This document shows positions 3,958 through 40,555 of a stretch of 64,000 bases of DNA, in pieces. The translations under genes were made by a program, and so were the position numbers. Each line of letters opens with the position of its first letter. Within the stretch, counting starts at the first letter, position 1. The DNA is from Haloferax marisrubri (GTDB lineage: Archaea; Halobacteriota; Halobacteria; Halobacteriales; Haloferacaceae): assembly GCF_001469875.2 (NCBI RefSeq), contig NZ_LOPW02000016.1:1-64000 (forward strand). Reading direction: 5' to 3'. Under the pieces are notes generated by a model. The model searched no databases, was not told the origin of the DNA, and saw only the letters and a program-made list of their open reading frames with translations.

Positions 3958-3958
3958 C

Positions 3959-5215: not shown

Positions 5216-5231
5216 CCCCTCTGTTGTGGGG

Positions 5232-8502: not shown

Positions 8503-9156
8503 TCAGATGAATATTTCTTTCCTCCCTTTCAAGAATACACGGCCACTGTCGCTCAAAGTAACCGTTTTCGTCCGTCCCTCTTTTTCTGTTATGACCAAAC
8601 ATTCTGATTCCAAACTATCGACATGGCGAGCAACTGTACTCTTTGATTTCTCGAGCTCACTAGCAATTTGGCTTATCGACAGGGGTGTGTTCAGTTTCGA
8701 TAATTCAATGAGTAGTTTTGCTTCGGCGTCTGAGACGTTCCCACGAAGGTTTAGACGTGGAATACGACGGACGCTACTGTCGATATCTCCGACTTGGAGT
8801 ACTGTCTCGACGTAACTCTCGTTCGTGAATGTCGCGACTGTCAACGGCAATAGAATCTCACGCGCGCCCCCACCGAGGATGACGATGGTTTCACCTTTTG
8901 ATGCCTGCATGAGGTCGGCGCAATACAGGGTTGTCTCGATAAAATCTGTATAGGGCAGGTATTCTGACTCCAGATCAAGACCAGGGACTACCTGTGTGAG
9001 AACTTCTTCTACTTCCCCGAAGGCGTCTTCGCCTCGCTCAGAACCGTTCGCTGGTTGTAACAGAATAACTCGGTCTTCTTCGTCAAGACCCATGCTAAGA
9101 ACTGGTCGAACGACACGCCGACTGTCAAATCCTAAGGGGGCGAGGTAGGTTCTCAT
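8503..9156 (-). CDS. CARF-HTH transcriptional regulator, Csa3-like
   Basis: A 217-aa protein. The N-terminal half (about 1-130) begins MRTYLAPLGFDSRRVVRPVL and contains GGGAREILLPLTVATF near residues 95-110, the GGxR-type loop of a CARF (CRISPR-associated Rossmann fold) domain that binds cyclic oligoadenylates or similar ligands. The C-terminal half (about 140-217) is a winged helix (SISQIASELEKSKSTVARHVDSL). This layout is that of Csa3 and related haloarchaeal regulators. No CRISPR array or cas gene is visible. It is divergently placed 437 bp from the start of the seven-gene helicase operon, so control of that operon is the simplest proposal. Alternative: a member of the related HFX_2341-type regulators. 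Confidence 0.75.
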   Translation of the reverse strand: MRTYLAPLGFDSRRVVRPVLSMGLDEEDRVILLQPANGSERGEDAFGEVEEVLTQVVPGLDLESEYLPYTDFIETTLYCADLMQASKGETIVILGGGAREILLPLTVATFTNESYVETVLQVGDIDSSVRRIPRLNLRGNVSDAEAKLLIELSKLNTPLSISQIASELEKSKSTVARHVDSLESECLVITEKEGRTKTVTLSDSGRVFLKGRKEIFI

Positions 9157-9593
9157 ATCTACAAATTGGATATGCCACCTGGTTACTGTTCCGAATCAGT
9201 GCAACAGTTGGTGTGATTCTCCCACACAATTGGGGGCGTACGAGGCAATATTACGAGGGAACCGGTCTGTGTCCACTCAGACCGTCCCAAATTACTGCAA
9301 TTGTCACCAATATGTTTCACTTGCGATAACTATTTGATAAATCCCGACAGAATTGATAATTGCTCGCACAGTCCGCAATCGGGTGACACCCACCTATCTG
9401 CGGTAGTGATATCTCTGCCCTGAAAATTATCACTTCCGCGACAGGTTTATGTAACTCGGGATGAAAGTATCATCCGGTCGAATTCACTCGAAACGGCCTA
9501 AACGGCTGATTCGGCATAGCCACGGCTATGTTGAGGGTGCGAGCGCCGGCGTCTATCCCACACTCGACGCCAACAACGATTCCCAAGCGAACC
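9157..9593. promoter_or_regulatory. Divergent control region with an inverted repeat in the operon leader
   Basis: A 437-bp gene-free region between the CARF regulator and block 1. A TATA-like GGTTTATG (about 9443-9450) suggests transcription from about 9470. The leader then contains CATAGCC-ac-GGCTATG (9515-9530), a 7-bp perfect inverted repeat that could be an operator or RNA hairpin. The second arm includes a possible ATG at 9528. Overlapping short frames from 9461 and 9528 look non-coding compared with the main start at 9594. Sequence near 9290-9365 is AT-rich and may hold the regulator's own promoter elements. Confidence 0.5.
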
Positions 9594-10469
9594 ATGCAAG
9601 ACCCACCCGATCCGCCCGACTCAGAAAGCCCCACACTCGCTGATTTCATCGGAACACGAGACTCAGTTTTCGTACTCCGAGACCCACAACTCGCGAAGAC
9701 GGGTTCACAAGCACGTGCACAACTCCGTTCGTTGCCGTTTCTCGCACAGTTCGGCCTCGACCGAGTCGCCCATCCTGGTATCTACGATAATGGGTTGCGA
9801 CTTGTCGAATACAAACTCCTCCCGAACGAAGACTTGCGAGCGAACGGAGTAGCCAACGTCGGATTTCCACTAATTCACTATGTCAGCCAAGAGATGCTGA
9901 CTGGAGAATTACGGGATGATGAGAGTGTCTACGACGAGCAAGACGTTGTTCGCCGATTGCTTCGGAAGCGCCCCGACGGTGTACCGTACGTAATCGTCAC
10001 TGACACGGGTTCCCCAAAGATGCCACGCCATACCCGAAAACCGGGTAAATCGTTTGTCGATGAGTTCGAGTGTACTGTCGTCGAGTACAAGGGGTTACTG
10101 AAGCGGTATCTCCAGTACAATCTCGACTCGGACCTTCCGCTATCGTCGACACAGAATCTGTACTTCCATCAGATTTCGGCCCACCACAAGCGGTTGGGTC
10201 TCGATGCGGGCTCAATCCCCGACCTCTTCGACTACACACAGCTTCCAGCGGACAGTCCAGCCTGGGATCCGATTTACTATCTCATCCGCGAGGATGCTGA
10301 CCAGGTTCTCGAAGACTACACCGAGCGTATCCGCGAGGCACTCCGTTCGTGGACCGAGCGAGGCCCCACACAGAAGATCGCGAATAGTATGCTGGACATG
10401 CTTGAGTGGGTGGATTACGAAGAAGAACGCCTTGACGCATACCGATATCGCCATCAGGAGGATGCATGA
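9594..10469 (+). CDS. Block 1 gene A: uncharacterised 291-aa protein
   Basis: First gene of the seven-gene operon. It begins MQDPPDPPDSESPTLADFIG, has a central region with many conserved-looking aromatic and charged motifs (NVGFPLIHYVSQEMLTGEL; YVIVTDTGSPKMPRH) and a helical C-terminus. No catalytic motif or membrane segment is recognised. ATG at 9594 is chosen because the longer version from 9528 begins inside the leader inverted repeat and has non-acidic, atypical composition. Its stop overlaps the next start (ATGA), so the product is probably made in step with gene B. By order it occupies the place of a Dpd-type accessory gene, but I cannot confirm homology. Confidence 0.75.
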   Translation: MQDPPDPPDSESPTLADFIGTRDSVFVLRDPQLAKTGSQARAQLRSLPFLAQFGLDRVAHPGIYDNGLRLVEYKLLPNEDLRANGVANVGFPLIHYVSQEMLTGELRDDESVYDEQDVVRRLLRKRPDGVPYVIVTDTGSPKMPRHTRKPGKSFVDEFECTVVEYKGLLKRYLQYNLDSDLPLSSTQNLYFHQISAHHKRLGLDAGSIPDLFDYTQLPADSPAWDPIYYLIREDADQVLEDYTERIREALRSWTERGPTQKIANSMLDMLEWVDYEEERLDAYRYRHQEDA

Positions 10470-11392
10470 GCACAAAATTCACACCGGCCAGTTCTAAGCC
10501 GGACAAACTACTCACCGGGTTCATCTCGGTGCGAGCACCGGAACTCAAACACATCTACAACGCAATCCAAGGCCCGACCTCCGTCTCCGAACTCACGAAG
10601 AAGTTCGGGAAGCCGACTAGCGGCGGAGTCGAAACCGATCACGTCGAAGAGACGGTTCGGTTCCTGAACGCGGTCGACTTGGTCGAGAGTCCCTCGGGAG
10701 ACATCAGGGACACTGTCGAGCGCATCAACGAGCGTCACCTCGTTGGGTTACCGTTCGAAGCACGACTCCTGTACCACTGCAACCAACAGGGGGGACGGCA
10801 AACACACTTCGCAGCAGTTTATCGAGCTCTGCTGAACGAAGGAAGCCGAACTGTGAACGGAGACCGTGACAACCTCCGCACTATTCTGAAGCGTGAGACT
10901 GACTACGACTTCAGTTGGACCGACGAGAAGATCGACATGTGGGTGACGTTGAGCGAACAATTGGGACTGATTATCGAGTCCGAAGACGACATTACCCTGA
11001 GTCCTTGCCGGGCTCTGATGCACGATGCACTCGTCCTCGCTCCGATGAGCTCTGACGGGAACCCGAATTACGACGACGTCACCACCAAGAATGGGGAATT
11101 CCGTCGTGCACTCGATTGGATCAACGATAATCTCTTCAGTGTCTACGAAGAGCGCGCGGGAACGCCCCGTGTCCACCCAGCGATTGCCGACGTACTTCGC
11201 AACATGGAAGATGATGGCGTCATCTCCCTGTCGAGTCCTGGTGACTCACAGAACGCGGTCAAAATTCCACCGGAGAACCTCAACGAGGACGTTCGAGGGA
11301 ACCGACGTGACGTGACCCGCATCTCGATCCAATCGCACCCTGACGAAACGGCCTACCAGTACCCCCTCACGCAGTTCCTCACCCAACAATGA
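10466..11392 (+). CDS. Block 1 gene B: uncharacterised protein with winged-helix-like segments (DpdG-like position)
   Basis: A 308-aa soluble acidic protein. Residues ~30-75 (ISVRAPELKHIYNAIQGPTS, then VSELTKKFG, then VEETVRFLNAVDLVE) look like a winged helix, and a second helical region follows at 90-180. The remainder (about 190-308) shows another wHTH-like stretch (HPAIADVLRNMEDDGVISLS). Overlap with both neighbours by 4 nt means tight translational coupling to the P-loop protein downstream. The size and placement before a ~1000-aa ATPase recall DpdG in the Dpd island; this comparison is from memory and is tentative. Confidence 0.75.
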   Translation: MSTKFTPASSKPDKLLTGFISVRAPELKHIYNAIQGPTSVSELTKKFGKPTSGGVETDHVEETVRFLNAVDLVESPSGDIRDTVERINERHLVGLPFEARLLYHCNQQGGRQTHFAAVYRALLNEGSRTVNGDRDNLRTILKRETDYDFSWTDEKIDMWVTLSEQLGLIIESEDDITLSPCRALMHDALVLAPMSSDGNPNYDDVTTKNGEFRRALDWINDNLFSVYEERAGTPRVHPAIADVLRNMEDDGVISLSSPGDSQNAVKIPPENLNEDVRGNRRDVTRISIQSHPDETAYQYPLTQFLTQQ

Positions 11393-14300
11393 GTCAAGAC
11401 GCTCAACAACTCTCAGCCGGCAGCGAGATGCCGTGCTACTGGGATGATAACGAAGTTGACCACTTCATCACCTCGGAAGCACACACGGCGACGAAGACGC
11501 CCGAACAGTTCAAAGAAACTCACGTCGACATCGACCGAATCTGGGCCGATACGCTGACTCCTCTCGGCGTTTCGGGCGACTTTGTCACTCAGGAAGACGT
11601 ACTCGAATCAATCACAGATTCCAACCTCGACGACCCAAACCGAATCTTCATCGTTCGCGGTGAACCCGGTTCCGGGAAGAGCCAACTCTGTGAGTGGACG
11701 AAGTACCAGATCAACGGCTTTGGTGAAGACGACGACGGTATCGAGGACTACGTTGCGCTTCACGTGTCCCGAAGCCAGACTCGGATGGACCAGATCATCG
11801 ACGTTCTCACCGAACCGCTTGGTGTTGACACTGACGTCAGGAACATTCAGGGGAGCGACCCCTACGATCTGGCCGAACCAATCGCGGGACTCCTTCGTGG
11901 GTACTGGTCGACCAGTCTGCTCACGGATGAGGAACTGCGTGAGCTCACCGAAGAGCGTGACGACGGAACGGACCTCCGTGATATATTCGCCGAGAATATT
12001 CGAGACTACCAGGAGGCTCTGGAGTCCCGTGACGAGAATCCGGACTTCAAACTCCTCACTCGAGATAACTACCGCGACCTGCGTCTGACTCTGAGCTTCG
12101 GTGATAAGTTACGAGAGGAGAGTGAGTTGATCTTCCCTGCGCTGAAGAACCAAGCTCACGAGTATCTCTCGAACAACCTCGTAGGCAACTTCAAAGAGCA
12201 ACTCCAGGAGTACTCTGAACTGTATCAGGAGAAAGGTATCCGGCCGGTCCTCATCTGCGAAGACCTAACCACGTTCTCCGTCCTGAAGGAGCAACTTCTC
12301 GACCACATCTTCGAACTGAGTAGTAGTCACTATGACATTGTCCTCGGATGGACAATTGGATGGGAACAGGATAACATCGACGACGCGATGACCCGTTCGG
12401 ATGCGGCCACGTACATGAAAGGCCGATCCGAGGGGTACCTGACGATGACCGACGAGAATGGTGCGGCGTACTTCCTCGACGACGACGTCTCTGTCGAGCT
12501 CACTCGGTCGTACCTCAACGCAATTAAGCGCCACTCCACCACCGGATCGGCACCCGACGATGTCGAAGACTCCTTCGACGGATTGTACCCATTCAACGAG
12601 CGGTTCGTCCACGTCGCATACCGCCAACTGAACGACGAGGGGAGTGACCGCAAGACACCACGGTTGCTCCTGCTTCGTGTCGTAAAACACTGTCTGAAGT
12701 CGTCTTGGCCGCCTTACGAGGCGATGAAGTCGAATTCCTTCGTCGATACCCCTACCTTCGGGATCGACATGAAGTACGACCAGATATATCTGGATCTCAG
12801 CCGCTGGTACGGTGTTCCTGTCGAAGGTGGTGTCGGCGTCAAGGTCGGTATCTTCGAAACCTTTGGAATCGACCTCCCTGACAGCGACGTGGCACCAGTG
12901 AGGGGTGAGTACGTTGTGTTCGATAAGGGCAAGGGAAGCGCCGTCCTCGACAAAATCAAGAACCCACCGACGCCGAAGCACGAGACCGATGAGGACGAGG
13001 ACGACTACGATAGCGATGAAGAAACTGGTGGAGACGACCAGGATGATGGTGAGACCGATCCCGACGAGGAAGATGACGACGTAACCGTCATCGACGAACC
13101 CGAACTCTCGGAGGAAGAGCGTGAGCGTCAGCACAAGTTCCAGGAGTTCCAAGACTGGGTTACAAACGGTGAGGAATACCCCAGTTCCGACACGCTTCAC
13201 GATGGCGCAGTCGAAGTCCTCGAACGCTGGCACGACCCGACCCGCCTCAGTAACCCAAACGCATCGACGCGGTCCGCAAGTGCGATCTACTACGCACGCG
13301 GTGACAACATCCCAATATCAATTCAGGGAGACCAGCAGCGACAGGCAAGCATCGATATCGAACTTGAGTGGGGCGTAGAACACGCCGACCTCTACACCCC
13401 AATGCTTGAGTACGGTCTCTTTGAGGTGTTCGATACCAATGATACCAACTTCGACCGACTACGGGCGTGGGCCGACACCAACGTCGCGCAGTTCAAGCGT
13501 GAAATGCGTCAGGAGATCGAAGACTGTCTTCCCGAAGGGCTCACTATCGAGAAAACGCTCGTGCTGGCACAGTTCTTCCTTGTCAACGCTGCACAGGGGA
13601 CAGAGGTCGAAGGCGATGAGATTCCCGCTGAACTTGTCTTCGAAGAGTACGATGCGAATCAGTCGTACGGGAAGCCAATCGTCGAAAACTTCGACCGAAG
13701 TAGTGCGTTTGGGCAGGCCTTCAACAACCTAACCACGTATTCGAGCGACATCAACGACCTCATCGAGGGCTTCTTCCTCCTCAAGTCGAACGTCGTCGAC
13801 CACGACCGTCTGGCAGAAGCGCGGCGAGAGGTCGCTGCCGACTTCGAAACTCACGTTGACGACGCGATGATGATCGATGCGGGCGACCTGCCCGATGCGT
13901 ATAAAATCGGCTCGACTCGCAAACAGGCGAAGACAAAAGTCTCGACGCTATTCGGTTGTATCTCCGACTACGCGGCCGAACTCCAGCGACTCACTGCGGA
14001 GGAAGACGCTTCGCATATCCAGTCCGCTCTCAAACCCGCCGAGCGGTGGTACGACAGCAGTCACACGGTCAACGACCTTGCTGAGTGGTTCGAGACGCTA
14101 TACAATTGTGCCGGTGCGATGGACGTGCCCATCAACCCGACCTACGAGGAAGTCCACGAGATCCTTACTGAATCACCCGAGGAGGTGAAGCTCACGCCCT
14201 TCGGGAAAGACGTGAAGCGGTTCCAGAACATGGACGATGCGACCGGCGTGACGCTCGTCGCTCGATTGCACGACTTCGCTCGCAGTCGCCACGAGCAGCG

Positions 14301-14463
14301 TGCGTGGAAGTTATACGAGGCGTTGAACTCATTTATCAGTGATCTTCAAGACCAAGAACACTCCACTGGGGCCGACCTCGACCACAGAATCAAGCAACTT
14401 AGTGAGTACACCGAGTACGAACAGAAACGGCAGGAAATCACTGATATCACGGAGGATCTATAA
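11389..14463 (+). CDS. Block 1 gene C: 1024-aa P-loop NTPase (DpdH-like position)
   Basis: Walker A GEPGSGKS sits at residues ~91-98 in the context IFIVRGEPGSGKSQLCEWTK. A Walker B-like hydrophobic-acidic strand RPVLICEDLTTFSVL follows near 285-298. An extremely acidic linker (about residues 531-567, almost all Asp/Glu) splits the protein. The C-terminal half is helical with ordered segments near 700-1000. The layout, an N-terminal ATPase followed by a long helical scaffold, resembles large regulatory ATPases of multi-gene restriction systems. It probably powers or gates the nuclease/helicase subunits encoded downstream. It starts inside gene B's stop and ends 1 nt before gene D. The specific family is not certain. 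Confidence 0.8.
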   Translation: MSQDAQQLSAGSEMPCYWDDNEVDHFITSEAHTATKTPEQFKETHVDIDRIWADTLTPLGVSGDFVTQEDVLESITDSNLDDPNRIFIVRGEPGSGKSQLCEWTKYQINGFGEDDDGIEDYVALHVSRSQTRMDQIIDVLTEPLGVDTDVRNIQGSDPYDLAEPIAGLLRGYWSTSLLTDEELRELTEERDDGTDLRDIFAENIRDYQEALESRDENPDFKLLTRDNYRDLRLTLSFGDKLREESELIFPALKNQAHEYLSNNLVGNFKEQLQEYSELYQEKGIRPVLICEDLTTFSVLKEQLLDHIFELSSSHYDIVLGWTIGWEQDNIDDAMTRSDAATYMKGRSEGYLTMTDENGAAYFLDDDVSVELTRSYLNAIKRHSTTGSAPDDVEDSFDGLYPFNERFVHVAYRQLNDEGSDRKTPRLLLLRVVKHCLKSSWPPYEAMKSNSFVDTPTFGIDMKYDQIYLDLSRWYGVPVEGGVGVKVGIFETFGIDLPDSDVAPVRGEYVVFDKGKGSAVLDKIKNPPTPKHETDEDEDDYDSDEETGGDDQDDGETDPDEEDDDVTVIDEPELSEEERERQHKFQEFQDWVTNGEEYPSSDTLHDGAVEVLERWHDPTRLSNPNASTRSASAIYYARGDNIPISIQGDQQRQASIDIELEWGVEHADLYTPMLEYGLFEVFDTNDTNFDRLRAWADTNVAQFKREMRQEIEDCLPEGLTIEKTLVLAQFFLVNAAQGTEVEGDEIPAELVFEEYDANQSYGKPIVENFDRSSAFGQAFNNLTTYSSDINDLIEGFFLLKSNVVDHDRLAEARREVAADFETHVDDAMMIDAGDLPDAYKIGSTRKQAKTKVSTLFGCISDYAAELQRLTAEEDASHIQSALKPAERWYDSSHTVNDLAEWFETLYNCAGAMDVPINPTYEEVHEILTESPEEVKLTPFGKDVKRFQNMDDATGVTLVARLHDFARSRHEQRAWKLYEALNSFISDLQDQEHSTGADLDHRIKQLSEYTEYEQKRQEITDITEDL

Positions 14464-14464
14464 T

Positions 14465-15292
14465 ATGCCCAACACTCAGTCACTACCCAACGTTGTCGAG
14501 GCTCTAGAAAATAAGGCCAAAGAGCACAAGCAAGCAGAGAACACCCAGTTCCACGTCTCGGTCGCCCGGCACAACATCCGCGAAGTAAATCGCGAACTCG
14601 ACAAGCTTATCTCGAGCCTTCGGGACCTTCGGTACTACAAGACGGTCCTCGAAGGTGCCTTCGATGGTTCGCCACCGACAATGACTGGTAGCGCCTCACA
14701 GGCCGCAAAAAAGGCTATCAAGACGACACAAGAGGACTTACTGGGTAACATCCAGAATAACGAGATGGACGACGACGTTGATCTCGAAGAAAGCGGGGGT
14801 AGTGGTAACCCAGAAGTCCAACTGACCCCCGAAGTCGAGACGCAAATCGGACACATCAAGTCAGCGAAGCGTCAGGTCAACAACGTCGTCGATATCATCG
14901 AGAGTCGACTCGAGTCGAAGCGAAAAGACTGGAGTACAAAGGTTGGTGCAGCAGAAGAACTGCAAGAGATTCTCGGGGGGAAGAATGGTGACTTCTCGCG
15001 TACGCTCAACCACATGCATCAACTCCTGACTCGAGAGTTGATGGACCCGAGTGGATCTGCATCGAACTTCGTTTCCCAGTGGAACAACGCCGTCAGCAAC
15101 TGGGAGGAACATCAGTCGCTCCAGAGCTTTGACGACTTCCAGGCGAAACACAACCTCTCGGACTCGACTATCGAGGACGTAAAGACGCTCAGCAAGTCCC
15201 AAAAACTCACCTTAGCTGATGTCTCGCTTGATTCCCTCAAGGAGATGAAGCGCGTTGATGAACTCGAATCGGCCGTGGAACTGAGCCTCTAA
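14465..15292 (+). CDS. Block 1 gene D: coiled-coil protein (DpdI-like position)
   Basis: A 275-aa, largely helical protein with heptad-like stretches at about 5-60 (VVEALENKAKEHKQAENTQF; VNRELDKLISSLRDLRYYK) and 130-175, an acidic linker (DDDVDLEESGGSGNPEV) and a C-terminal helical domain. ATG at 14465 starts 1 nt after gene C's stop; the frame extends upstream to 14339 only as an overlap with gene C. No enzymatic motif is seen, and a bridging or scaffold role between the ATPase and the helicases is inference. Two nucleotides separate it from the first giant helicase. Confidence 0.75.
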   Translation: MPNTQSLPNVVEALENKAKEHKQAENTQFHVSVARHNIREVNRELDKLISSLRDLRYYKTVLEGAFDGSPPTMTGSASQAAKKAIKTTQEDLLGNIQNNEMDDDVDLEESGGSGNPEVQLTPEVETQIGHIKSAKRQVNNVVDIIESRLESKRKDWSTKVGAAEELQEILGGKNGDFSRTLNHMHQLLTRELMDPSGSASNFVSQWNNAVSNWEEHQSLQSFDDFQAKHNLSDSTIEDVKTLSKSQKLTLADVSLDSLKEMKRVDELESAVELSL

Positions 15293-15294
15293 CA

Positions 15295-18200
15295 ATGAAA
15301 GACCCCGTCGCCCGCGCGGAGCAGATGCAGGATGCGTACCACGACTACTTCATTGGTCGTGGTGGGCGCGCGGCACGTAGCGTCGCCAATCGGCTCGCCG
15401 AGGGTGAGGACGACCTGACGGGAATACGCGGACCATATCTCCAGGCTCTGGACATCCCGAACTGGAGCACCCGTCAGTGGAACGATTTCGCCCGATCGGT
15501 ACGTCTTGAACCACACATCCGCCGTGCCTTCTCGAAAATTGGCTTCGAGCGGTTGTACGACTTCCAGGAGCGCAGCATTAAGGCTATCCTCGAAGGCGAC
15601 GACACCGTCATCACAGCCGCAACGGGACGGGGGAAGACCGAAGCATGGCTCATTCCGATTCTCAACCGTATCCTCGAAGACAAGCGGTACGGTAGGGACA
15701 GTAACGACACCAGCGTCAAAGCCACGCTCATCTACCCGACAAAGGCGCTTGCACAGGACCAACTGAAGCGTCTCCTTCAGTACCTCTACCTCATCAACAA
15801 ACAACTGAAGTCAGAACAGCAAATCACGGTCGGCATCTACGACGGTGACACGCCGCGAAACGTTAGTGAATCGGGGTCTGAGGGATACCTCAACGCGACG
15901 TTCCGTCACTTCGAGTGCCCAGGGTACAACGACGAGCTCGCTAAGTGCCAAGACTGCGGTGGCGGTGTCCGAATCCGGAATACGGGTTCTCGGTTCAAAC
16001 TCATCCCTGAAAAGGCAAAGTGTGAGGATGATGATCCGAATGACGTCCCGCTTGACTTCTTGCGTCTAACAAAATACGACATCCTCGAGAACGGTGTCGA
16101 CATCTTACTCACTAACCCAGACACGATCAATTACCGGCTCATCAATACTAACGCCGAAGACGAACATGAGCGCTTCATTTATGAGCCCGAGTTCCTCGTG
16201 TTCGACGAGGTTCACACCTACGATGGCTTGTTCGGGAGTTACACCTCGACGCTGATGAAGCGGATTCAGTCGCTGCGGGAGGAACGCGGCGTTGAAGACC
16301 TGCAACTCATCGCGAGCAGTGCAACCGTCGAGAACGACGTCGAACTGTTCCAGAAAGTGAGTGGTGCTGTCGACATCAAGCAAGTGAGTGAGTCACCTCG
16401 TGACCTCGATGGGTCCGTTCCAACTGAAGTCCCAGACGAACTAACGTCGGATAGTTTGACCGTCGACCGCATTCTTGGTTCGACGGCGGACCCCGACGAT
16501 GATGTTCCGGGGCTCGACGGGTTTGAATATACACTCGATGATTCGTCGAGTTATGACCGTGACCGGCGCGAGACTCTGGTGAGTGATGCGCTCTTCGACC
16601 ATCTCACCGAGGCTGATGACGATTCGGGAGCACAGGTTGTTCGATACGTCCACCAGTTACTGTACAACGAACCCCTCACGCGGTCGGACCTACACGACAC
16701 ACTAGCCACGACGCTTGACCTCGACGGCGAAGAGACGTCTACGTTGGTGTCGAACGTCCGCACACTCGGGGAGTTCTCAGGTATGTTGGAGAACCGCAGC
16801 CACGTGTTTTCCTGGCCGATTGATGGCTTCTACACGTGCCCGTCGTGTGATGCGGCGTATCGGTCGCCACAAGACGGTTGTCGAGAATGTGGGTTCGGCT
16901 TCGTAACGCGAACCACCTACTGCCGTCATTGTAGTGACGAGCACCTCGTCGCGTGGTACTGTCCGAGTTGTGACCAACTGGAACCATACACACCGACTGA
17001 GCATGGCACGGTGGACCAGGATGAGGTCCATATCTGTCGACGATGCGAGTCTGGCCGAGATGATGTCGTTCAGATGGTCCGAACGACGTTTCAACCGTTC
17101 CTCGAGTGCCTGGATTGCGGGAATCAATCAGAGCGAACGACGAATCTCGAATGTCGGGACTGCGGCTCTAAGACCGTCATGACCGACACTGAGACGTTCA
17201 CGTGTATCAACCCACAATGCGGGGCGACACACGAACCAGAACATGTCTGCACTCACTGCGAAGGCACTGACTTCGAGGTAAGCACAACTGGCGGTCAGTT
17301 CGACTGTCCTGACTGCGGGAGGATCTACGATCGGACAGAGCAGTCCCCCAACCACTGCGTTGATTGTGGCTCCAGTATCACTCCGACACGATTTCTTCCG
17401 TGGGTTTGCACAAACGATGACTGCGACCGAGTTCACTTCGAGAGTGACCCTAAGCAGTGCGACTGCGGAGAGTTATCGTTTGTAAAGCGCGGACTCTTCG
17501 AAATACGACATGACCACTACTGCCGGTCGTGTGACACAGCGTTTTTGGGTGACGAGGGGTGCGACTGCGATAACCCGGACGTTCATCCTCGAACTGGTCA
17601 CCACCAGGCGTACAAGACAGTCGATACCCACGGTTGGATTCACAACATGAGTTCACAACCGTCGGCCGTCCCGTGCCCGCATAGGTATGCCCGGTACGAG
17701 ATTGGCCGTCGGTTCGACGAACTGATGCGTGGACCGAGTAACCTCGCGGTGACGACCTCGCAGTACATGCTTCGGGCAGTCGCCGACGAAGAAGGCCAGC
17801 AAGCAGCGAAACTCCTCTCGTTCGCTGACTCTCACCGCGACATGAAAGAACTCAGTCGGGACTTCTCTGAGCCAGAAGTGGAAACGTTACTGGACCAACT
17901 CCTGATTGAGAGTGCATCGTCCAATGACGATGGCAACCAATGGATTCGCTTCGACCGTGTCCTCGAACATGCAGACGAGACCGTCGACAGGGTCAACGAC
18001 GAATTAGAACCTCCACAAGTTGCACGGAGAGTCGAATTCAATCTCAAATCACGGTTGAAGGGTCAACCTCGGAAGAGGTGGGACGAGAATAACGCACTCC
18101 GAGATCGGTTGTCTCGTCGTGCACTCAGGCACACCTACAGTCAGCGGCTAGGCGAACGAGATGGCCCTCTCGACGAAGTTGGCCTACTTGACGTCCGCCT

Positions 18201-20823
18201 CGCCTTTGGTCTGAGCGAACTCGAGAATGACGAGCGCGCCATCGTTCGTGAACTTGCGGACGAAGGCAATGACTATCGGGTGGAAAAATTCGACTCACCG
18301 AGTCCTGACCGATCTGCCGGAGCTGTTGTCGAAGCGTTAGTCAACCAGGGAATCCTTGAGTATGGTCACTCTGAAGACTACGTCTCGTTTGACCCATCCG
18401 CACTCGAGGTCACGGTTGCTGGCGACGGAGACAACATCCGATTCGACCCCAACAAAGAGCGATACTACACGACGTTACAGCACCAGTTCGGCTTAGACAC
18501 CCAGTCGACTGTCCGTTCAGGAGCATCACTCTTGGATCGTGCGTCGGTGTCGCATCCTCGGTTCTCACAGCGAGCTCACCGCGCTGAATACTCGCGAACA
18601 CGAATCCTCATCTCCGAGGAGTATCTGGGAACAACTGACAAACGTAAGCGCCGTGAGTTAGAGTATCTCTTCCGCGAGGAGAACTACCCGCACCACCTCT
18701 CATCGGGTCCAACGATGGAACTCGGTGTCGACATCGGCGCACTCGACGCGCTCCTCCTGTACGGGACGCCCCCGAACATGAATGCGTACCTCCAGCGGGT
18801 TGGGCGTGCCGGGCGTAGTTCACACTCGTCGATGGTTCATTCTGTCAGCCAACGGAATCCCATCGATTACTACTACTACGACCACCCTGACGAGCTCATT
18901 GACGCGGAACCTACACCGGTGCCGCTCAACGAGCACAACGAGGAAGTCCTTCGCGTCTCGCTTTCATGGGCTGTCTTCGACTACGTTGCGGCTCACTTCA
19001 CTATCCCATGGGACGTTAGCCGTCACGGTCGTGCACGCTCTATCGATGGTGGCGACACCTACCATCGTCGTAGCATGCTCGACGCCGCCGCACGCGAGGA
19101 CGCCAGTAAGTTGACTCACGTGATGTCACTCAACGCTGATACATTGTCTCTTAGTGAGGTGGATTCGAAGCTCGAAATCCTCGGTGAGGTTGTCGAAGAC
19201 CACAAGCATGACATCTCCGGCTATCTGGAGTCGCTACTCGATTATCGGTACTGCGAGGAGTGCGAACGCCGATACGCTACGGACGATGACCGAGGAGTCT
19301 GTGAACGGAGAGATTGCGACGGAACAGTCCGATACGCTCAACATGAATTCGATCACCTCGTCGACGACGCTCTCGATAACTTCGACGAGCGTTACATCAG
19401 CGGGTATCGAGAGTACAGACACTTGCTCGAAGACGAGCTTGCTGATCTGAAGCGGCGGAATCAGAAACTACGACGTACTCAACAGCGTGCCGGGTCAGAA
19501 GAGCGCAGTCGCATCATGCGAGAACGACGCGGTCTCCAGGACCGAATAGAGGTGCTCGACGACTATCTGTCTTCTCTGGGTAAGTCGAGTTACTTTGACT
19601 TCCTCAGAGAGTCGCGCGAAAGCAAGTACGACTTCTCCATGAGAAGTGTCGCCACCACAGCTGGGCTGACGTTGGTTGATGAGGGATATGACCGACGGAA
19701 TCTCGGTGACCAGGGAAGCGGTCGCGCGATGCAGATGGCACTCTCCGAACTCCATCCTGGGGCCGCCTACCTCGACAGCGGTGAAACCTATACTGTCTCT
19801 CGTGTTCGTCTCGATGACAAGGCTGGATCCGACCTTCGCGAAGCAGTAAGCGAGGCGGTAGAGGGCGAACGCCTAGCTGAGGAGCTGATTTGCCCAGCGT
19901 GTCACACCTCATATGACCTCGATGCTCAGGGATGCGACTGTGAGTCTGATGCGCCGCTCAAGGTTCGGCGACTCACGATGCTCGACTCTGTCGAGGCATA
20001 TCACGATAACCTCAAATTGACTGCGGAGGGCGACGAAGCACGACATCTCCACAACGAACCAAACAACCAGGTGCAAAATACGTACGCAGAACGTGAGACG
20101 TCGATTCTCGACTTCGACTCAAACAGGACATTTGAGCTTCAGGCTGCCGATGGCGAGCGGCTTGGAACACTTGAGTACGGCGATTACTCGGTGCTCCTCC
20201 ACACCAAGAGCTACAAGACGAAGTACAAGTCCGGTGAGGTCGATCCCCGTGAGACACTCTTCGAGGTCTGTGGAGAAGAGAACTGTCCAGGCGTCATCTA
20301 TCGCGATGGTGATGATGAACGCCGGTGCAGTGCCGACCCTGACCACTTCCCTGACGGACGTGGTGCAGATTCCCAGTTCATCAGATTGGGGTACCAATAC
20401 AACACGCAGGGTGTTCGTATCGACCTTGACGACCGTGAGTTATCCCACACGCTGGCTCACGGGGTTCGGGTCGCACTACAGTATCTTGGAGGCGTGAACA
20501 TTCGTGACCTCGCCGAGCACGTCGGCGAAGAGCGTGTTGACGTCTTCGAGTCGCAAGAAGGCGGATCCGACGTCGCACGACTCCTCTTCGAGCAGACTGA
20601 TGGCGAGTTCAAATCATTCAGCCGCGCGCTCGGACTCATGCGTGACCAGTTCGATTGTGACTGCGACAGTGGGTGCCCGTCTTGTCTGTATCAATATGGG
20701 TGTGATCTCAGAAACGATCAGCGCTCGTTCGACCGTGAGCGTCTCCGCGAGATCCTCGAAGGGGGCGATATGACTATTCGAACAATCGAGAACCACGAAC
20801 CCGACGAACAGTTCGCGAACTAA
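15295..20823 (+). CDS. Block 1 gene E: giant SF2 helicase with zinc ribbons and DUF1998/MZB end
   Basis: 1842 aa. The SF2 core starts with DFQERSIKAIL (Q-motif region) and ATGRGKTE (about 109-116), then YPTKALAQDQLKRL (Ia), LTNPDTINYRL, DEVH (about 304-307) and SAT (about 341-343). A long insert at ~515-760 contains about ten CxxC zinc knuckles. Motifs V-VI follow: SSGPTMELGVDIG (about 1136) and QRVGRAGR (about 1166). Another zinc pair (CEEC..C..C) and a coiled coil lie near 1320-1430. The C-terminus has HGVRVALQYLGG (DUF1998-type) and the four-Cys cluster CDCDSGCPSCLYQYGC (about 1788-1803) of MrfA-type helicases. MrfA-type helicases translocate 3'-5' on DNA, and relatives are the DISARM DrmA/B and Druantia DruE proteins. 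DruE has a similar size. Confidence 0.92.
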   Translation: MKDPVARAEQMQDAYHDYFIGRGGRAARSVANRLAEGEDDLTGIRGPYLQALDIPNWSTRQWNDFARSVRLEPHIRRAFSKIGFERLYDFQERSIKAILEGDDTVITAATGRGKTEAWLIPILNRILEDKRYGRDSNDTSVKATLIYPTKALAQDQLKRLLQYLYLINKQLKSEQQITVGIYDGDTPRNVSESGSEGYLNATFRHFECPGYNDELAKCQDCGGGVRIRNTGSRFKLIPEKAKCEDDDPNDVPLDFLRLTKYDILENGVDILLTNPDTINYRLINTNAEDEHERFIYEPEFLVFDEVHTYDGLFGSYTSTLMKRIQSLREERGVEDLQLIASSATVENDVELFQKVSGAVDIKQVSESPRDLDGSVPTEVPDELTSDSLTVDRILGSTADPDDDVPGLDGFEYTLDDSSSYDRDRRETLVSDALFDHLTEADDDSGAQVVRYVHQLLYNEPLTRSDLHDTLATTLDLDGEETSTLVSNVRTLGEFSGMLENRSHVFSWPIDGFYTCPSCDAAYRSPQDGCRECGFGFVTRTTYCRHCSDEHLVAWYCPSCDQLEPYTPTEHGTVDQDEVHICRRCESGRDDVVQMVRTTFQPFLECLDCGNQSERTTNLECRDCGSKTVMTDTETFTCINPQCGATHEPEHVCTHCEGTDFEVSTTGGQFDCPDCGRIYDRTEQSPNHCVDCGSSITPTRFLPWVCTNDDCDRVHFESDPKQCDCGELSFVKRGLFEIRHDHYCRSCDTAFLGDEGCDCDNPDVHPRTGHHQAYKTVDTHGWIHNMSSQPSAVPCPHRYARYEIGRRFDELMRGPSNLAVTTSQYMLRAVADEEGQQAAKLLSFADSHRDMKELSRDFSEPEVETLLDQLLIESASSNDDGNQWIRFDRVLEHADETVDRVNDELEPPQVARRVEFNLKSRLKGQPRKRWDENNALRDRLSRRALRHTYSQRLGERDGPLDEVGLLDVRLAFGLSELENDERAIVRELADEGNDYRVEKFDSPSPDRSAGAVVEALVNQGILEYGHSEDYVSFDPSALEVTVAGDGDNIRFDPNKERYYTTLQHQFGLDTQSTVRSGASLLDRASVSHPRFSQRAHRAEYSRTRILISEEYLGTTDKRKRRELEYLFREENYPHHLSSGPTMELGVDIGALDALLLYGTPPNMNAYLQRVGRAGRSSHSSMVHSVSQRNPIDYYYYDHPDELIDAEPTPVPLNEHNEEVLRVSLSWAVFDYVAAHFTIPWDVSRHGRARSIDGGDTYHRRSMLDAAAREDASKLTHVMSLNADTLSLSEVDSKLEILGEVVEDHKHDISGYLESLLDYRYCEECERRYATDDDRGVCERRDCDGTVRYAQHEFDHLVDDALDNFDERYISGYREYRHLLEDELADLKRRNQKLRRTQQRAGSEERSRIMRERRGLQDRIEVLDDYLSSLGKSSYFDFLRESRESKYDFSMRSVATTAGLTLVDEGYDRRNLGDQGSGRAMQMALSELHPGAAYLDSGETYTVSRVRLDDKAGSDLREAVSEAVEGERLAEELICPACHTSYDLDAQGCDCESDAPLKVRRLTMLDSVEAYHDNLKLTAEGDEARHLHNEPNNQVQNTYAERETSILDFDSNRTFELQAADGERLGTLEYGDYSVLLHTKSYKTKYKSGEVDPRETLFEVCGEENCPGVIYRDGDDERRCSADPDHFPDGRGADSQFIRLGYQYNTQGVRIDLDDRELSHTLAHGVRVALQYLGGVNIRDLAEHVGEERVDVFESQEGGSDVARLLFEQTDGEFKSFSRALGLMRDQFDCDCDSGCPSCLYQYGCDLRNDQRSFDRERLREILEGGDMTIRTIENHEPDEQFAN

Positions 20824-20849
20824 CCAACATCCCACACACATTGCCACCG

Positions 20850-23800: not shown

Positions 23801-26300
23801 TGGTCAAAATCATCGCTACGAACCCAACTTAGTCGCTGAAATCGACAACGGCCACAGCCACCTCGACTCACTCATCGAGCGTGGAATCCTGCGCCGCGTC
23901 GAAGAAGATGGAAGTCGGTTTGTGATGGTAGAAGAGGACGTAGTTGAGTGTGCGATCGTTGACGAGGAGACGCCGACGAACTACAGTCCGCATGAAGAAA
24001 CGTACTCGACCTCACTTGATGTTGCCCTCGGCGTTTCCCCTGGGGATGTTGTTGAATTCGATGCGACGATCGAGGACCGGGCCGTCTTCCACCACCCACA
24101 CTACTCACTTACTGCGCAACAAGTCGCTACGTCTGACCCGATGATGCTGCTCGCACGGGCGTACTACGGTGAAACTGACCGTGAAGAGCGGCGGAAACTT
24201 GAGTACCAGTTCCGGCAAGGGAGGTATCCACATTTCCTCTCGTCGGGTCCGGCGATGGAGCTCGGTGTCGATATTGGCGACCTCAATACGCTTCTCCTCT
24301 ACGGCACGCCGCCGAACGCTAACTCGTACCTTCAGCGAATCGGCCGAGCAGGGCGTTCTTCGGGCAATTCGCTCATTCACTCAGTCAGCCAGCGGAACCC
24401 AATCGACTACTACTACCACGAGCACCCCGAGGAACTCATCGCTGCTGAACCGCAACCTGTCCCACTTAACGAGGTAAATCGAGAGGTTCTCCACCAGTCC
24501 CTCACTTGGGTAGTCCTCGACTGGGCTGCAACGACCCGGTGGGTTCCATGGCGTCAAGAGCAGAGCGGACTCGATGATTTCGTTGTTTGCAAAGATGACC
24601 CAACGCCTCGGACAGAACCCCGACCGAACGACATAATGCGGTTCACGGGAGTCCTGTCGTCTTCCAATTTTGAGGTCCAGCATCAGGGCGGTGACGCCCC
24701 GCTTGAGACACTTCGTACGCTGATATCTGAGAATCGCGATGAGGTTGAACAATGGCTCCGTGACATCCTCTCGTTCGGCGTTTGCTCGTCGTGTGGTCGG
24801 AAGCACGCGACTGGTTACACCGGAGCGTGTCAGCGGCAAGACTGCGACGGGAGCGTCGAATCCGTCTTGGACAGAGGCGAAGACGTCGTAGAGGGTGTGC
24901 TCACCGGGACCACAGAGGAGTTGAGTTTCGAGGAGACAATTATCGACCTCTACTTCGATCAGCAGAACAACATCAACGACGACATCGACGTACTCGATAG
25001 AGATCGTCAGGACCTACGACGAAAGGAGCGTAAAACACGCGACCGTGACGAAAAGCGCCGGCTACGGGACCAAAAGAATCAGATTAATCGTCGGATTGAC
25101 CAGTTGTACGACTATCTCCAACGGCTCGAAGATATGGACTTCGGGCGGTATCTGAGTCGAGAGAGTCCGGCAGCGTTCGGGCTACGGTCGGTCGGTGACT
25201 CTGTTGATTACCGACTCGTTGGTGAAGACTTCAAGAACGTCAGCGACGGGTCACGTGACCGACGTATCGCCCTCTCCGAACTCCACCCCTCTGCGGCGTA
25301 TCTCCACGATAGTGAAACGTACGTCGTCACGCAGGTGTCGTGGGAGCCGTTGGAGACCTCACGGATCAGCGAGGATTTGGAAGATGCAGCAATTTGTCCG
25401 ACGTGTGCTGCTGAGTTCGATAGTGACACCTCGAACTGCGAGTCCTGTGGAACACGACTGAAGCGACTGGTGACTCGTGTTCCCGAGCGAGTAATCGCAT
25501 ATCAGCACGACTTACCGCTGAGTTCCACGCCCAGTACGGCACAACTTCGACCATCTACCGTTTACCAAGACGATAGCGAACCCCAGAGTACGTACGCACC
25601 CGTTGAAACTGATGCAGGAGACTCGTTCGAAGCGACGTTCTCTCGTAACATCGTCGACGAGGATGGAACTGTTCACGGACAGTTCGAATACGGTGATGTC
25701 ACCCTGGTCGCTTCGACGGACAAATACTGGGCGACCTACAAAAACGGTGGCTCAGACCCGCTTCCGAACGTATTCGAAATGTGCGGTGTCGAGAACTGCA
25801 ATGGGGTAATTGCGAAGACAAAGGACTCGGCGTATTGTTCGAACAACGTCGAACACCCTGTTGAAGAGAGTGTTGCTGTGCGCCCCGCAACGAAGTTCTC
25901 CACGAAGGCTGTTCGTGTCCGCTTCGACAGCGAAGAACTTGAACACGGTTTCGCTCACGGCCTCCGCGTTGCACTCCAGTACATCGGCGGCGTCAGCGTC
26001 AGGCAGGTCCCCGAATCCATTGAGGACGAAGGAACCTTGGTGTATGACTCAGACGAAGGTGGCAGTGGGATCACTGTACTGCTGACGCAAGATGACGGTG
26101 AGAAGTTCGAGCGAGCGATTAAGATAATGCGCGACGCGTTCTCGCCAGACGAATCGAAGTGCAACTGTGAAAACGGCTGTCCGTTCTGTATCTACCAGTA
26201 CGGATGTGTAGAGCAGAACGACCCTGAATCATTCGACAAGGACGAACTGCTCGACCTGTTAGCTCACGATCTCCACCTCGAATCACGTGACGATGCCTGA
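20850..26300 (+). CDS. Block 1 gene F: second giant SF2 helicase, tandem paralogue of gene E
   Basis: 1816 aa from ATG 20850 (an in-frame TTG at 20841 is less likely). The order of modules is the same as in gene E: STGRGKTE (about 120), YPTKALAQDQLKRL, DEIH (about 300), SAT (about 345), a zinc-ribbon insert (about 507-757), SSGPAMELGVDIG and QRIGRAGRS (about 1162), a coiled coil, HGLRVALQYIGG, and the cluster CNCENGCPFCIYQYGC near 1770. All helicase motifs are intact, so both copies should be active ATPases. Identity is high in motif blocks (LAQDQLKRL; HSVSQRNPIDYYY in both) and low in the zinc insert, which indicates an old duplication with diverged specificity. The stop overlaps the PLD gene start. 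Confidence 0.92.
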   Translation: MEFDPLELANSMQESYAEHYAGSLPQRAVKNLVSRYHDGSGESLEDDLPEFIRTKGPYLQVLDLPRMSDTPWETFADDNGLHDDVTTTFTEAGFRSLYEFQEASVKAILEDHHTLLTASTGRGKTEGWLIPILNFITDAKDGQHDAHPPESVKCVLTYPTKALAQDQLKRLIDYLFTLNRERSSDEQITVGIYDGDTKRRDPDELSYLQTTFQYFDCPCGECDSSLTVRRRDDESFVVEPMEEHEDNLTFDFIKVTRDAIVEAPADILLTNPDTINYRLFNVNEDEEQHRFVAEPKYFVFDEIHEYSELFGSFTSTLMRRYIRERQELNGYESESDDDLTIIGASATVENKRGVFQRINPFVDPDVEVVEEDERTLDSPFPTDIPNEFLSSTLTADGLRNGDTAAAVRALETAGVDGGDEGVDEAIYEHLVEEDGGPLEFVRGIYTALRKKPLRPVELRERLIDESELTEQQAEVVVENFMTIGEVSGILERRAHLFSWPLDGYYTCINCGTVYDTPQSSCSECDHHFVTKLSLCNQCGEESLESWFCPNCERLIPHTVTSEEGRFEYFQRRECSCETLEGENPEMVRVYWRPYYECTECGERQKIDHQHDCLTCNASMVLDDLMENHVCTNPDCDEELSIEEAHEPECHSCHSAALEPLADEDVQYCTECGEVYEDPEGQGCTANDCDGDLTPKRFLGWTCGDPECDEVFFGRPPASCTCGKRKFVRSALFDIRMVDECQSCGHEFLLNGPHDCNCENPEISQRAKGYSNFRMVDDDGRIRKASQFPGGLPCYHEDQRETYSKNRRYDSMLRGPANAAVTSGRYLLRSLADRNDPDTFTESKMLSFADSQSDMKELERNFREPEESFYFDRLFVESVRKEADGSGWATLSDVIDCGVSDAHQYEEELAGDGGNSPKMYESLTSYNQSVDEYLTEELLSRALEGKYSERYRSKQLSDEGLVDLRLTVDIDDLDGGEREMLVETIGQNHRYEPNLVAEIDNGHSHLDSLIERGILRRVEEDGSRFVMVEEDVVECAIVDEETPTNYSPHEETYSTSLDVALGVSPGDVVEFDATIEDRAVFHHPHYSLTAQQVATSDPMMLLARAYYGETDREERRKLEYQFRQGRYPHFLSSGPAMELGVDIGDLNTLLLYGTPPNANSYLQRIGRAGRSSGNSLIHSVSQRNPIDYYYHEHPEELIAAEPQPVPLNEVNREVLHQSLTWVVLDWAATTRWVPWRQEQSGLDDFVVCKDDPTPRTEPRPNDIMRFTGVLSSSNFEVQHQGGDAPLETLRTLISENRDEVEQWLRDILSFGVCSSCGRKHATGYTGACQRQDCDGSVESVLDRGEDVVEGVLTGTTEELSFEETIIDLYFDQQNNINDDIDVLDRDRQDLRRKERKTRDRDEKRRLRDQKNQINRRIDQLYDYLQRLEDMDFGRYLSRESPAAFGLRSVGDSVDYRLVGEDFKNVSDGSRDRRIALSELHPSAAYLHDSETYVVTQVSWEPLETSRISEDLEDAAICPTCAAEFDSDTSNCESCGTRLKRLVTRVPERVIAYQHDLPLSSTPSTAQLRPSTVYQDDSEPQSTYAPVETDAGDSFEATFSRNIVDEDGTVHGQFEYGDVTLVASTDKYWATYKNGGSDPLPNVFEMCGVENCNGVIAKTKDSAYCSNNVEHPVEESVAVRPATKFSTKAVRVRFDSEELEHGFAHGLRVALQYIGGVSVRQVPESIEDEGTLVYDSDEGGSGITVLLTQDDGEKFERAIKIMRDAFSPDESKCNCENGCPFCIYQYGCVEQNDPESFDKDELLDLLAHDLHLESRDDA

Positions 26301-28269
26301 GGATATACCCAGCGTTTCCACCGAGTTGCGAACGCAGTCTCCAGAGCGACTCTGGGGACTTTCACCGGAGAGTATCTACTCTGCTTTGGCGGCCGAGGCT
26401 ACTGGCGACTCCGTTCATAAGCGACTCGAGCCACACATTCGGGCAGAAACACTCCGAACGAACGATGAGAGAGAACTGGACCAAGTTGTGGAGATGCATC
26501 AGTGGCTACTCGATGAACTCGGTCTCGTCAACGGTGAGGAGGTCACACTTCTGGGCATGGTGGTGCTCACCTCCGAAGAGCCACAACCACTCATTCGGGC
26601 TGTTGCAGTTTCCCGACTCCAGTCAGCTGAGATGGTACTTCGCTCGTGTGTCGACGTCGACGAGAACATCCCTCGACGTGAACTTGACAGTCTGATTGCT
26701 GATGAGTGGCATGAGTTCGTCTTAGCACCTCTCCTCGGTTCTCTCGGGTTCATGACGATATTCCCGGACAGTGTCGATCTCGAAATAGAGAGAATTGACT
26801 CCTCGCTCACGGCACAGCAGTCCACATCTTCCGGTAAGACGATTGCAGAGGCATACCGCAGAGTATTACCCTACATCGTGGACGTTACCGATGAGTCGTC
26901 TCTCGATGATTTGGTCTCCGGATTGACCGGTACCAAGTTGAACGAGAAAGAGTCGACCGTCGGTGTAGCAGCTAGGCTCGCAAGTTTGCCGTCTGTGGCC
27001 GTTGAGGAGGACCAAATTACTGAGGTAGTGAGCGAGCAGCGCCGTGAGTACGAAGGAGAATTCGACACCATTCGATCGCTACTGACGCCGTCTACTGAGA
27101 ACGAAGTGGCGCGAGTTGAGACAGAGCAACCGATTGAAATCGACGACATCCCGGAAAGCGACGCGTTGGACGCTGATACACGAGATACTCTTCTCAATAT
27201 CGTTGCTACTGTCGCCGCACATCCTGACCTCAGAACTCTTGACGTCACCTTCGTCACGAAGCGTGGTGTGACGCCGTACATCCTCTACCAGACACTCTCA
27301 TCGATTCCAGGTGTCGAGTGCGAGGTGGGCGACGGCGTAATTGAGTTTGAATCCGTTCCAGAGGAGGTTGAGGGGGATGATTTTCGAGAAGAGTACACTA
27401 CACATCTTATCGAGCGGTGTTCAACACTCAAGTCCCGGATAGACGAACTTTCCAACGTTTCGGTGTCCATACCTCCCGAACCTGTCTCCGCAAAGTCAGT
27501 CGTCACCCGGGATTACGAATCACTTCGCGATGGCGATGTCGAACCAGCCTACTTCACCTACACGCTCATCGACCCGGGGGCACTCGGGGAGAAGAAAATG
27601 AACGATTACGTCGGTAAGTCGAGGGGCCTCGGGCAAGAACGTGCCAGGCTCCGTCGTTGGCATGAGAGCCGACCATCCGGACTCCGTTCATATACGGAGA
27701 TGACGGACCGACTGTTCAGCCTCGGCTTGGAGCGAGAAATTGAGGACAAGGTGCTGCGCATCATGACGCCGTTTGACGACGATACGTTCAACGAATACGT
27801 TGCCCAGATTCGACGTCTCCTCAACCATGGATTCGAATTCCGTCTGCTCACACGACATACCAAAGAGTCCTGGGAGTGGGAACGACTCCAGCGAAATCTA
27901 CTGAGCGAGATCAAAGAACACCGCGACCAGGTAACAGTCAGAACCTACTCTCGGTTCAAAGAGCACCAGCGTGTGACCTCCGACATGGATCTCCGAAAAA
28001 TCGGTGAGCTCGGAATCCACGGAAAGCTTCAGACGATTGGTGCCCCTGAAGAAGGGGCCGCTCTTCTCGGCTCTGCAAACTTCATGGAGAACAGCTACGA
28101 CTGGAACCCGGAGTGTGGTGTCTACACTGAGCGAACACAATTTGTCGAAGCGGCAATCGAGTTCTTCGACATCGTCTGGGACATCTCGGCGGCAGATGAG
28201 ATCTCGACTGAGCGGTTACAGGAAATCCCAGACCGGAAATTGGTTCCGACGTACTATACGCAGGGTTAG
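26293..28269 (+). CDS. Block 1 gene G: PLD-family nuclease
   Basis: 658 aa from ATG 26293 (GTG at 26287 is an alternative); both starts lie inside the end of gene F. The C-terminal third has one phospholipase D signature: HGK (about residue 576) followed by GSANFMENS (about 592-600), with an upstream strand pattern RIMTPFDDDTF and FEFRLLTRHTKE typical of a PLD repeat. The N-terminal ~400 residues are helical/wHTH-like with no clear motif. One HxK per chain implies a dimeric active site, as in DrmC of DISARM and the PLD protein (DpdK) of the Dpd island. It is the expected DNA-cutting subunit of the operon, and the last gene of it. Confidence 0.82.
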   Translation: MPEDIPSVSTELRTQSPERLWGLSPESIYSALAAEATGDSVHKRLEPHIRAETLRTNDERELDQVVEMHQWLLDELGLVNGEEVTLLGMVVLTSEEPQPLIRAVAVSRLQSAEMVLRSCVDVDENIPRRELDSLIADEWHEFVLAPLLGSLGFMTIFPDSVDLEIERIDSSLTAQQSTSSGKTIAEAYRRVLPYIVDVTDESSLDDLVSGLTGTKLNEKESTVGVAARLASLPSVAVEEDQITEVVSEQRREYEGEFDTIRSLLTPSTENEVARVETEQPIEIDDIPESDALDADTRDTLLNIVATVAAHPDLRTLDVTFVTKRGVTPYILYQTLSSIPGVECEVGDGVIEFESVPEEVEGDDFREEYTTHLIERCSTLKSRIDELSNVSVSIPPEPVSAKSVVTRDYESLRDGDVEPAYFTYTLIDPGALGEKKMNDYVGKSRGLGQERARLRRWHESRPSGLRSYTEMTDRLFSLGLEREIEDKVLRIMTPFDDDTFNEYVAQIRRLLNHGFEFRLLTRHTKESWEWERLQRNLLSEIKEHRDQVTVRTYSRFKEHQRVTSDMDLRKIGELGIHGKLQTIGAPEEGAALLGSANFMENSYDWNPECGVYTERTQFVEAAIEFFDIVWDISAADEISTERLQEIPDRKLVPTYYTQG

Positions 28270-40553: not shown

Positions 40554-40555
40554 CG

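Follow-up and report, generated by a model that had tools for sequence, protein, structure and literature searches.

What system is encoded by a compact run of seven genes in the haloarchaeon Haloferax marisrubri that combines two giant MZB helicases with a PLD nuclease? The run, referred to here as P1–P7, is located in a stretch of 64,000 nucleotides (nt) of DNA (the window), which represents bases 1–64000 of the 166,953-base contig NZ_LOPW02000016.1 (C16) in a 3.9-Mb haloarchaeal assembly (GCF_001469875.2). An earlier sequence-only reading had likened these genes to the bacterial dpdG-H-I-J-K series and had considered that they may be an archaeal, modification-independent relative. Based on the comparisons described below, P1–P7 very probably supply the restriction (effector) part of a Dpd-type restriction-modification system in haloarchaea; the matching modification half would lie beyond the window. 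In bacterial Dpd systems, modification is accomplished by dpdA–C and restriction by dpdD–K.

Open reading frame (ORF) calls on the window place seven co-directional ORFs on the plus strand at 9594–28269:

9594–10469, plus strand: P1, 291 amino acids (aa), outside known families, with a modelled P-loop-ATPase-like core and no Walker A motif
10466–11392, plus strand: P2, 308 aa, DpdG-like by hhalign
11389–14463, plus strand: P3, 1024 aa, DpdH-type ATPase whose Walker A motif is invariant
14465–15292, plus strand: P4, approximately 275 aa from the first ATG, at the DpdI position, no sequence match detected
15295–20823, plus strand: P5, 1842 aa, DEAD/MZB helicase at the DpdJ position
20841 (TTG) or 20850 (ATG)–26300, plus strand: P6, 1819 aa, DEAD/MZB helicase, paralogue of P5
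26287 (GTG) or 26293 (ATG)–28269, plus strand: P7, 660 aa, at the DpdK position, consisting of an unassigned N-terminal region and a PLD nuclease domain at the C-terminus

The seven-gene block with overlaps or short gaps, two giant MZB helicases and a PLD nuclease had already been recognized from the sequence alone, and all of its ORFs and junctions were confirmed. Adjacent genes are separated by −4 nt (P1/P2 and P2/P3), +1 nt (P3/P4) and +2 nt (P4/P5) as well as, depending on the start codon, by +17 to +26 nt (P5/P6) and −14 to −8 nt (P6/P7); the first ATG of P4 is at 14465, and its frame extends without a stop back to a GTG at 14339. Other P3-carrying haloarchaeal genomes show this gene order as well, and hence the arrangement is not due to chance. 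The island extends beyond the window to position 73524 of the same contig.

Reference islands for comparison were taken from plasmid records of Enterobacter cloacae, Paenibacillus, Deinococcus taeanensis, Agrobacterium vitis and Skermanella, with dpdA, B, D, K, J, (I), H, G, F and E annotated on the E. cloacae plasmid pPOL9A (NZ_CP086409.1), and all hhalign comparisons with bacterial Dpd proteins were run in local mode. To judge from its sequence, P3 is a divergent DpdH homologue: it matches the NCBIfam DpdH model at 4.4e-14 (51.9 bits, far under the equivalog cutoff of 450) and five bacterial DpdH-type proteins at 4e-8 to 1e-59, and the Walker A motif is kept in 38/38 family members. The PADLOC DpdH model is silent in a genome-wide profile search, yet matches when the P3 protein is analyzed by hmmscan, which reflects a sensitivity limit rather than an absence. 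P2 resembles a 243-aa Deinococcus protein (2.5e-13) and a 246-aa Paenibacillus protein (2.9e-7), each encoded upstream of a DpdH-type ATPase, and shows a weak match to Enterobacter DpdG across the full length (0.015).

The two helicases P5 and P6 display MZB matches above the Pfam cutoff (30.1 and 30.2 bits in the genome search) along with DEAD domains (Pfam, 1.1e-23 and 7.9e-19, respectively), and P5 also matches NCBIfam DpdJ at 1.2e-32, under the model cutoff. All members of the P5 family (33/33) and of the P6 family (25/25) retain Walker A, DExH, motif VI and the MZB cysteines. In a helicase tree with long outgroup branches, P5 and P6 fall into two distinct clades, with the helicases of the most divergent loci (group D, see below) branching outside both. 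This topology fits a single helicase duplication before the split of groups A, B and C, followed by loss of P6–P7 in group B. P7 matches Pfam PLDc_2 (7.8e-6) and PADLOC DrmC (2.9e-7). Its HxK and GSAN motifs are kept in 25/25 members, and H578, K580, GSAN 595–598 and E609 are invariant in 21 aligned sequences. In a structural model, residues ~418–649 align with the PLD nuclease fold of Nuc, BfiI, NgoAVII and SauUSI (Z 11–12.5); matches to this domain take up the list of fold hits, with none assigned to the N-terminal 410 residues. P1 gave no convincing Pfam family in scans of 30 members and no Dpd match by hhalign. Its model (pLDDT 89) contains an alpha/beta core resembling AAA+/RecA ATPases with a best Z of 8.0 and a Foldseek E of 1.4e-3, scores near the level common among unrelated folds, and none of 36 aligned members carries a Walker A motif; a P-loop-ATPase-like core of the AAA+/RecA type without Walker A is thus suggestive only.

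A candidate modification half is present on the same contig, 3–9.5 kb beyond the window end (66980–73524):

66980–67441, plus strand: QueD-like gene, product over the Pfam PTPS cutoff and below the QueD equivalog cutoff
67466–68623, minus strand: c7, BrxC/D-like AAA ATPase
68623–69519, minus strand: c10, unassigned small protein
69516–70550, minus strand: TGT2, second transglycosylase (Pfam TGT, 2e-28), in which the two catalytic Asp motifs are preserved
70630–73524, minus strand: DpdA, 964 aa, fused to a DpdC-type (DUF6884) domain

DpdA exceeds the cutoff of NCBI model NF041059 (277.5 versus 200 bits); its match to 7ui4, a DNA-guanine transglycosylase of solved structure, is at 2e-39. At its C-terminus, DUF6884 (the dpdC domain according to a previous survey, PMC11888242) scores 28 bits against a cutoff of 30, and the PADLOC DpdC match is weak (4e-8). 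Among haloarchaeal loci (L076, L078, L080 and others), DpdA and this part are encoded either by a single gene or by two neighbouring ones for proteins of ~734 and 233 aa. TgtA and an ArcS-like protein, presumed to act on tRNA, are encoded separately on contig C10, and QueC on contig C3. DpdA lies ~42–45 kb downstream of the operon end and 62 kb from P3 in this genome. When the flanks of nearly all P3-matched genomes were compared for gene content, the operon was flanked at most related loci by the cassette genes for DpdA, TGT2, c10 and c7; in many relatives, QueD, QueE, QueC, FolE or a preQ0 transporter adjoin.

The association of the two halves was quantified across 391 Halobacteria genomes, 41 of which matched P3 (39 strongly). 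The operon occurs in ~10% of the sampled Halobacteria, and the pattern holds across 31 genera. Of the genomes with P3, 38/39 encode DpdA, as against 17/352 of those lacking P3 (Fisher p=2.7e-38, a value that overstates the case because related genomes are not independent). Among the P3–DpdA pairs, 36/38 share a contig, with a median distance of 18.4 kb and 31 pairs within 30 kb. The sole P3 genome without DpdA (G003) has an operon that is cut off after P4 and lacks P5–P7. The count is conservative, since at least one of the 17 genomes scored as DpdA-only (G277) carries a more divergent P1/P3-like set beside DpdA. As a control for crowding in defence islands, the helicase gene at 34018–37242 of the same window was used, strong homologues of which occur in 4/39 P3 genomes versus 23/352 others (p=0.33, no association). 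DpdA without P3 occurs, and an intact P1–P7 set without DpdA was not seen in the 391 genomes. Such an asymmetry, with the mark tolerated on its own and no intact effector lacking it, would be expected if a restriction activity depends on the mark.

With regard to gene content, the haloarchaeal loci fall into four groups:

Group A: P3 70–80% identical; complete set of seven genes in the same order
Group C: P3 ~45% identical, with an insertion; likewise seven genes on contigs of sufficient length, except genome G222
Group B: P3 ~38% identical; P1–P5 only, no P7
Group D: P3 ~26% identical; P1-like, P2-like, P3, P4-like, one helicase and mostly P7

A further locus (L102, genome G097) harbors a P1-like gene at 8055–8987 together with two additional large helicases and no clear P3, and perhaps represents a more distant related system.

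What the sequences show directly, namely which genes are present, their homologies and intact motifs, their conservation and their genomic coupling, can be set against the Enterobacter island (NZ_CP086409.1). Shared features include DpdA, preQ0 genes, a DpdH-type ATPase preceded by a DpdG-like protein, an MZB helicase at the DpdJ position, a PLD protein at the DpdK position and the order G-H-I-J-K; a DpdC-type domain is a further likely parallel. The likeness to dpdG-H-I-J-K proposed by the sequence-only reading is borne out by this order, by P3 as a DpdH relative and by P2 as a relative of DpdG-position proteins, as is the archaeal nature of the system. In contrast to bacterial Dpd, the haloarchaeal DpdC domain is fused to or encoded beside DpdA, P7 is far longer than DpdK (660 versus 176 aa), and P1, helicase P6, TGT2, the BrxC/D-like ATPase and a CARF regulator are extra components. 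Some bacterial loci come closer. The island on a plasmid of Paenibacillus sp. 37 (NZ_CP043762.1) encodes a long DpdA that matches residues 1–937 of the archaeal DpdA, together with a second TGT, DpdG-like and DpdH-like proteins, DpdJ and DpdK; unlike the archaeal loci, it keeps DpdD/E/F-like genes. In Chloroflexota, the P2–P3 pair adjoins TGT2 and DpdA, and in Chloroflexota and Calidithermus/Deinococcus the pair is again found beside a helicase, TGT2 and/or DpdA. In phylogenetic trees, DpdA forms one clade spanning archaea and bacteria. Bacterial TGT2 proteins group apart from haloarchaeal TGT2, which tentatively appears nearer to archaeal TgtA/ArcS in a tree with long branches.

Several points weigh against the assignment of P1–P7 to a Dpd-type system. 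DpdB (DndB/DGQHR, PF14072) is absent from 390/391 Halobacteria including this genome, the exception being genome G273, where one partial match lies near DpdA; some clusters reportedly can do without DpdB (PMC12839542). Phmmer searches with bacterial members against the ORFs of ~40 haloarchaeal loci revealed no counterparts of DpdD, DpdE and DpdF: the sole DpdE match is a generic SNF2 gene present only in this window, and DpdF retrieves only MZB helicases. By sequence, the locus is hence not a canonical Dpd island, because DpdB, DpdD, DpdE and DpdF were not found at haloarchaeal loci. The resemblance of P5/P6 to DruE (PADLOC, 1.8e-37) about equals that to DpdJ, and DpdK is the top hhalign match of P7 at a weak 0.002. 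P4 showed no match to DpdI by hhalign. Operon and cassette are ~40 kb apart here with other genes in between, the sources that could be read report no measurement of DNA modification in host DNA of these archaea, and the support for a Dpd-type assignment is throughout of a comparative nature.

Other known systems were considered as a home for the operon. DISARM likewise combines an MZB/DUF1998 helicase with a PLD protein; here, the large ATPase is DpdH-like and the operon encodes no methyltransferase. DISARM was rejected, as family scans identified no methyltransferase family in P1–P7. Druantia shares very large DruE-like helicases and was rejected because PADLOC returned no DruA–D or DruH match for P1, P2, P3, P4 and P7. 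The archaeal phosphorothioate system DndCDEA–PbeABCD resembles the locus in being haloarchaeal and modification-based and in featuring PLD and helicase domains. In Pbe, PLD and helicase are fused in PbeA and PbeC is SMC-like (PMC6459918); here, the two are separate proteins and the mark gene is DpdA. With no SMC-like family in the operon and with PLD and helicases separate in family scans, Pbe was rejected as well.

The DNA mark, the recognition of its absence, the cleavage and every subunit role are what we infer from the sequences. In a Dpd-type pathway, the DpdA–DpdC fusion, TGT2, c10 and c7 together with preQ0 genes would replace some guanines of self-DNA by a 7-deazaguanine (dPreQ0 or dADG), and the effector half would attack DNA without this mark. 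The DpdG/DpdH-like P2 and P3 may form an ATP-driven recognition and gating complex, the MZB helicases P5 and P6 could load and translocate on DNA, and the PLD domain of P7 would then cut unmarked DNA, with P1 and P4 as putative structural or regulatory subunits. For the last step, a block of the replication of unmarked DNA instead of its cleavage is a live alternative, albeit one we consider rather unlikely. Precedents are PbeABCD, which stops viral DNA replication without cleavage (PMC6459918), and Salmonella Montevideo, in which the modifications inhibit replication of unmodified DNA as far as the summary given with GATOR-GC goes (PMC11888242); group B, moreover, keeps P1–P5 without P7. The invariant PLD catalytic residues of P7 and its fold match to the restriction nucleases BfiI, NgoAVII and SauUSI argue instead for cutting.

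Readings without a protective mark fare worse. In a modification-independent helicase–nuclease defence, foreign DNA would be sensed by its structure or replication state and the nearby DpdA would be coincidental. The 62 kb between DpdA and P3, a window that itself contains no mark gene, and helicases resembling DruE, with Druantia requiring no known mark, would fit this proposal, which is nevertheless highly improbable given the near-universal linkage of DpdA in 38/39 P3 genomes and the homology of P3 and P2 to DpdH and DpdG. The modification independence considered in the sequence-only reading falls, by the criterion set out with that reading itself, with the DpdA and preQ0 genes at 66980–73524 of the same contig. 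An equally poor prospect is a type IV-like effector that targets foreign modified DNA, such as that of dPreQ1-containing haloviruses, and ignores the different deazaguanine of its host. Halovirus HVTV-1, which contains ~30% of G as dPreQ1 and has no DpdA of its own (Hutinet et al., PMC6884629), does infect the operon-carrying Haloarcula vallismortis (PMC6884629); it grows on this host nonetheless, and the near-obligate pairing with a host DpdA is simplest if the mark protects. Finally, two independent systems that merely travel together in haloarchaeal defence islands, as the varying order and spacing of the halves and the 17 genomes with DpdA and no P3 might suggest, are the least probable of all in view of the unassociated control helicase of the same island (p=0.33), the P2–P3 pairs beside DpdA or TGT also in Chloroflexota and Deinococcota, and the role of the DpdH and DpdG homologues as Dpd components in bacteria.

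Returning to the proposed Dpd-type effector operon, its expression is probably regulated from the region next to it:

8503–9156, minus strand: Csa3-type CARF and winged-helix regulator, divergent from the operon
9185–9208, no strand assigned: inverted repeat ACTGTT-N12-AACAGT, candidate Csa3 operator, 28–30 nt upstream of csa3, conserved

The regulator is supported by NCBIfam TIGR01884 (78.2 bits, cutoff 60.2), Pfam Csa3_N (6.5e-13) and PADLOC CARF3 (1.9e-83). A divergent csa3 neighbour is found in groups A and C, except in genomes G222 and G030 (listed under C), and was not detected at group B and D loci. Of the exact occurrences of the inverted repeat in 1.51 Mb of related loci, 14/15 fall into the gap between csa3 and P1. 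The window contains one match, and a search of the modification cassette for the palindrome gave none. The regulator probably controls operon expression via this palindrome, and we infer that control could respond to cyclic-nucleotide signals. No CRISPR-like repeats forming an array were found in the window, and an adjacent array hence does not account for Csa3.

Further genes of the window touch on its genomic context. An Orc1/Cdc6-type initiator and a ParA-like gene at 3842–7369 suggest that the contig is a plasmid or an integrated plasmid. At 34018–44275, an SF2 helicase with ResIII, an AddB-like PD-(D/E)XK nuclease and an AddA-like UvrD helicase-nuclease possibly form a second DNA-degradation module. 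It is followed at 44417–51937 by a gene run including a DUF4143 ATPase, a VWA protein, a metallo-beta-lactamase fold protein and a weakly Mrr-like endonuclease. The region 55811–61931 encodes the SNF2 helicase noted above as the sole DpdE match, then a protein of 1,125 aa built from numerous cysteine-rich repeats, whose gene contains a 90-nt tandem repeat at 59729–59908, and an Mrr-like endonuclease.

In the literature that could be searched, the sole mention of a haloarchaeal DpdA concerns a single homologue on AOLQ01000002 of H. vallismortis, the HVTV-1 host (PMC6884629). This locus (NZ_AOLQ01000002.1) in fact encodes the full set of P1–P7 and csa3, with DpdA at 6132–9026. In phage records, DpdA gave only one distant match, which does not indicate that known haloviruses carry this DpdA. 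The GATOR-GC survey of dpd islands covered bacteria only, in eight phyla (PMC11888242). No description of the archaeal effector operon was found in the searchable literature, which leaves most subscription papers uncovered, and priority is not firm; in Haloferax alexandrinus, the annotations given to the operon genes read 'hypothetical protein', 'S-layer protein' and 'DEAD/DEAH box helicase'.

Taken together, the best reading of these sequences is a real, conserved and new archaeal Dpd subtype that is not modification-independent. A more far-reaching scenario, which we regard as conceivable and hold only tentatively, is a distinct archaeal branch in which the mark is written by two different enzymes, a DpdA–DpdC fusion and TGT2 as a relative of TgtA, and its absence is sensed by a DpdG/H/J/K-type machine with two helicases; a Csa3-type CARF regulator would couple the attack genes to a cyclic-nucleotide alarm, and haloviruses with deazaguanine DNA, HVTV-1 among them, would mimic the mark or borrow the host DpdA. 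The known haloarchaeal DpdA would now be tied to a full, mostly unannotated effector operon. With regard to the Dpd family, the comparison points to DpdB, D, E and F as dispensable parts and to DpdA, G, H, a J-like helicase and usually a PLD protein as those retained. For haloviruses, such a system would give a concrete reason to carry deazaguanine DNA, and the source of dPreQ1 in HVTV-1 without an own DpdA becomes a question that may be tested in its own host.

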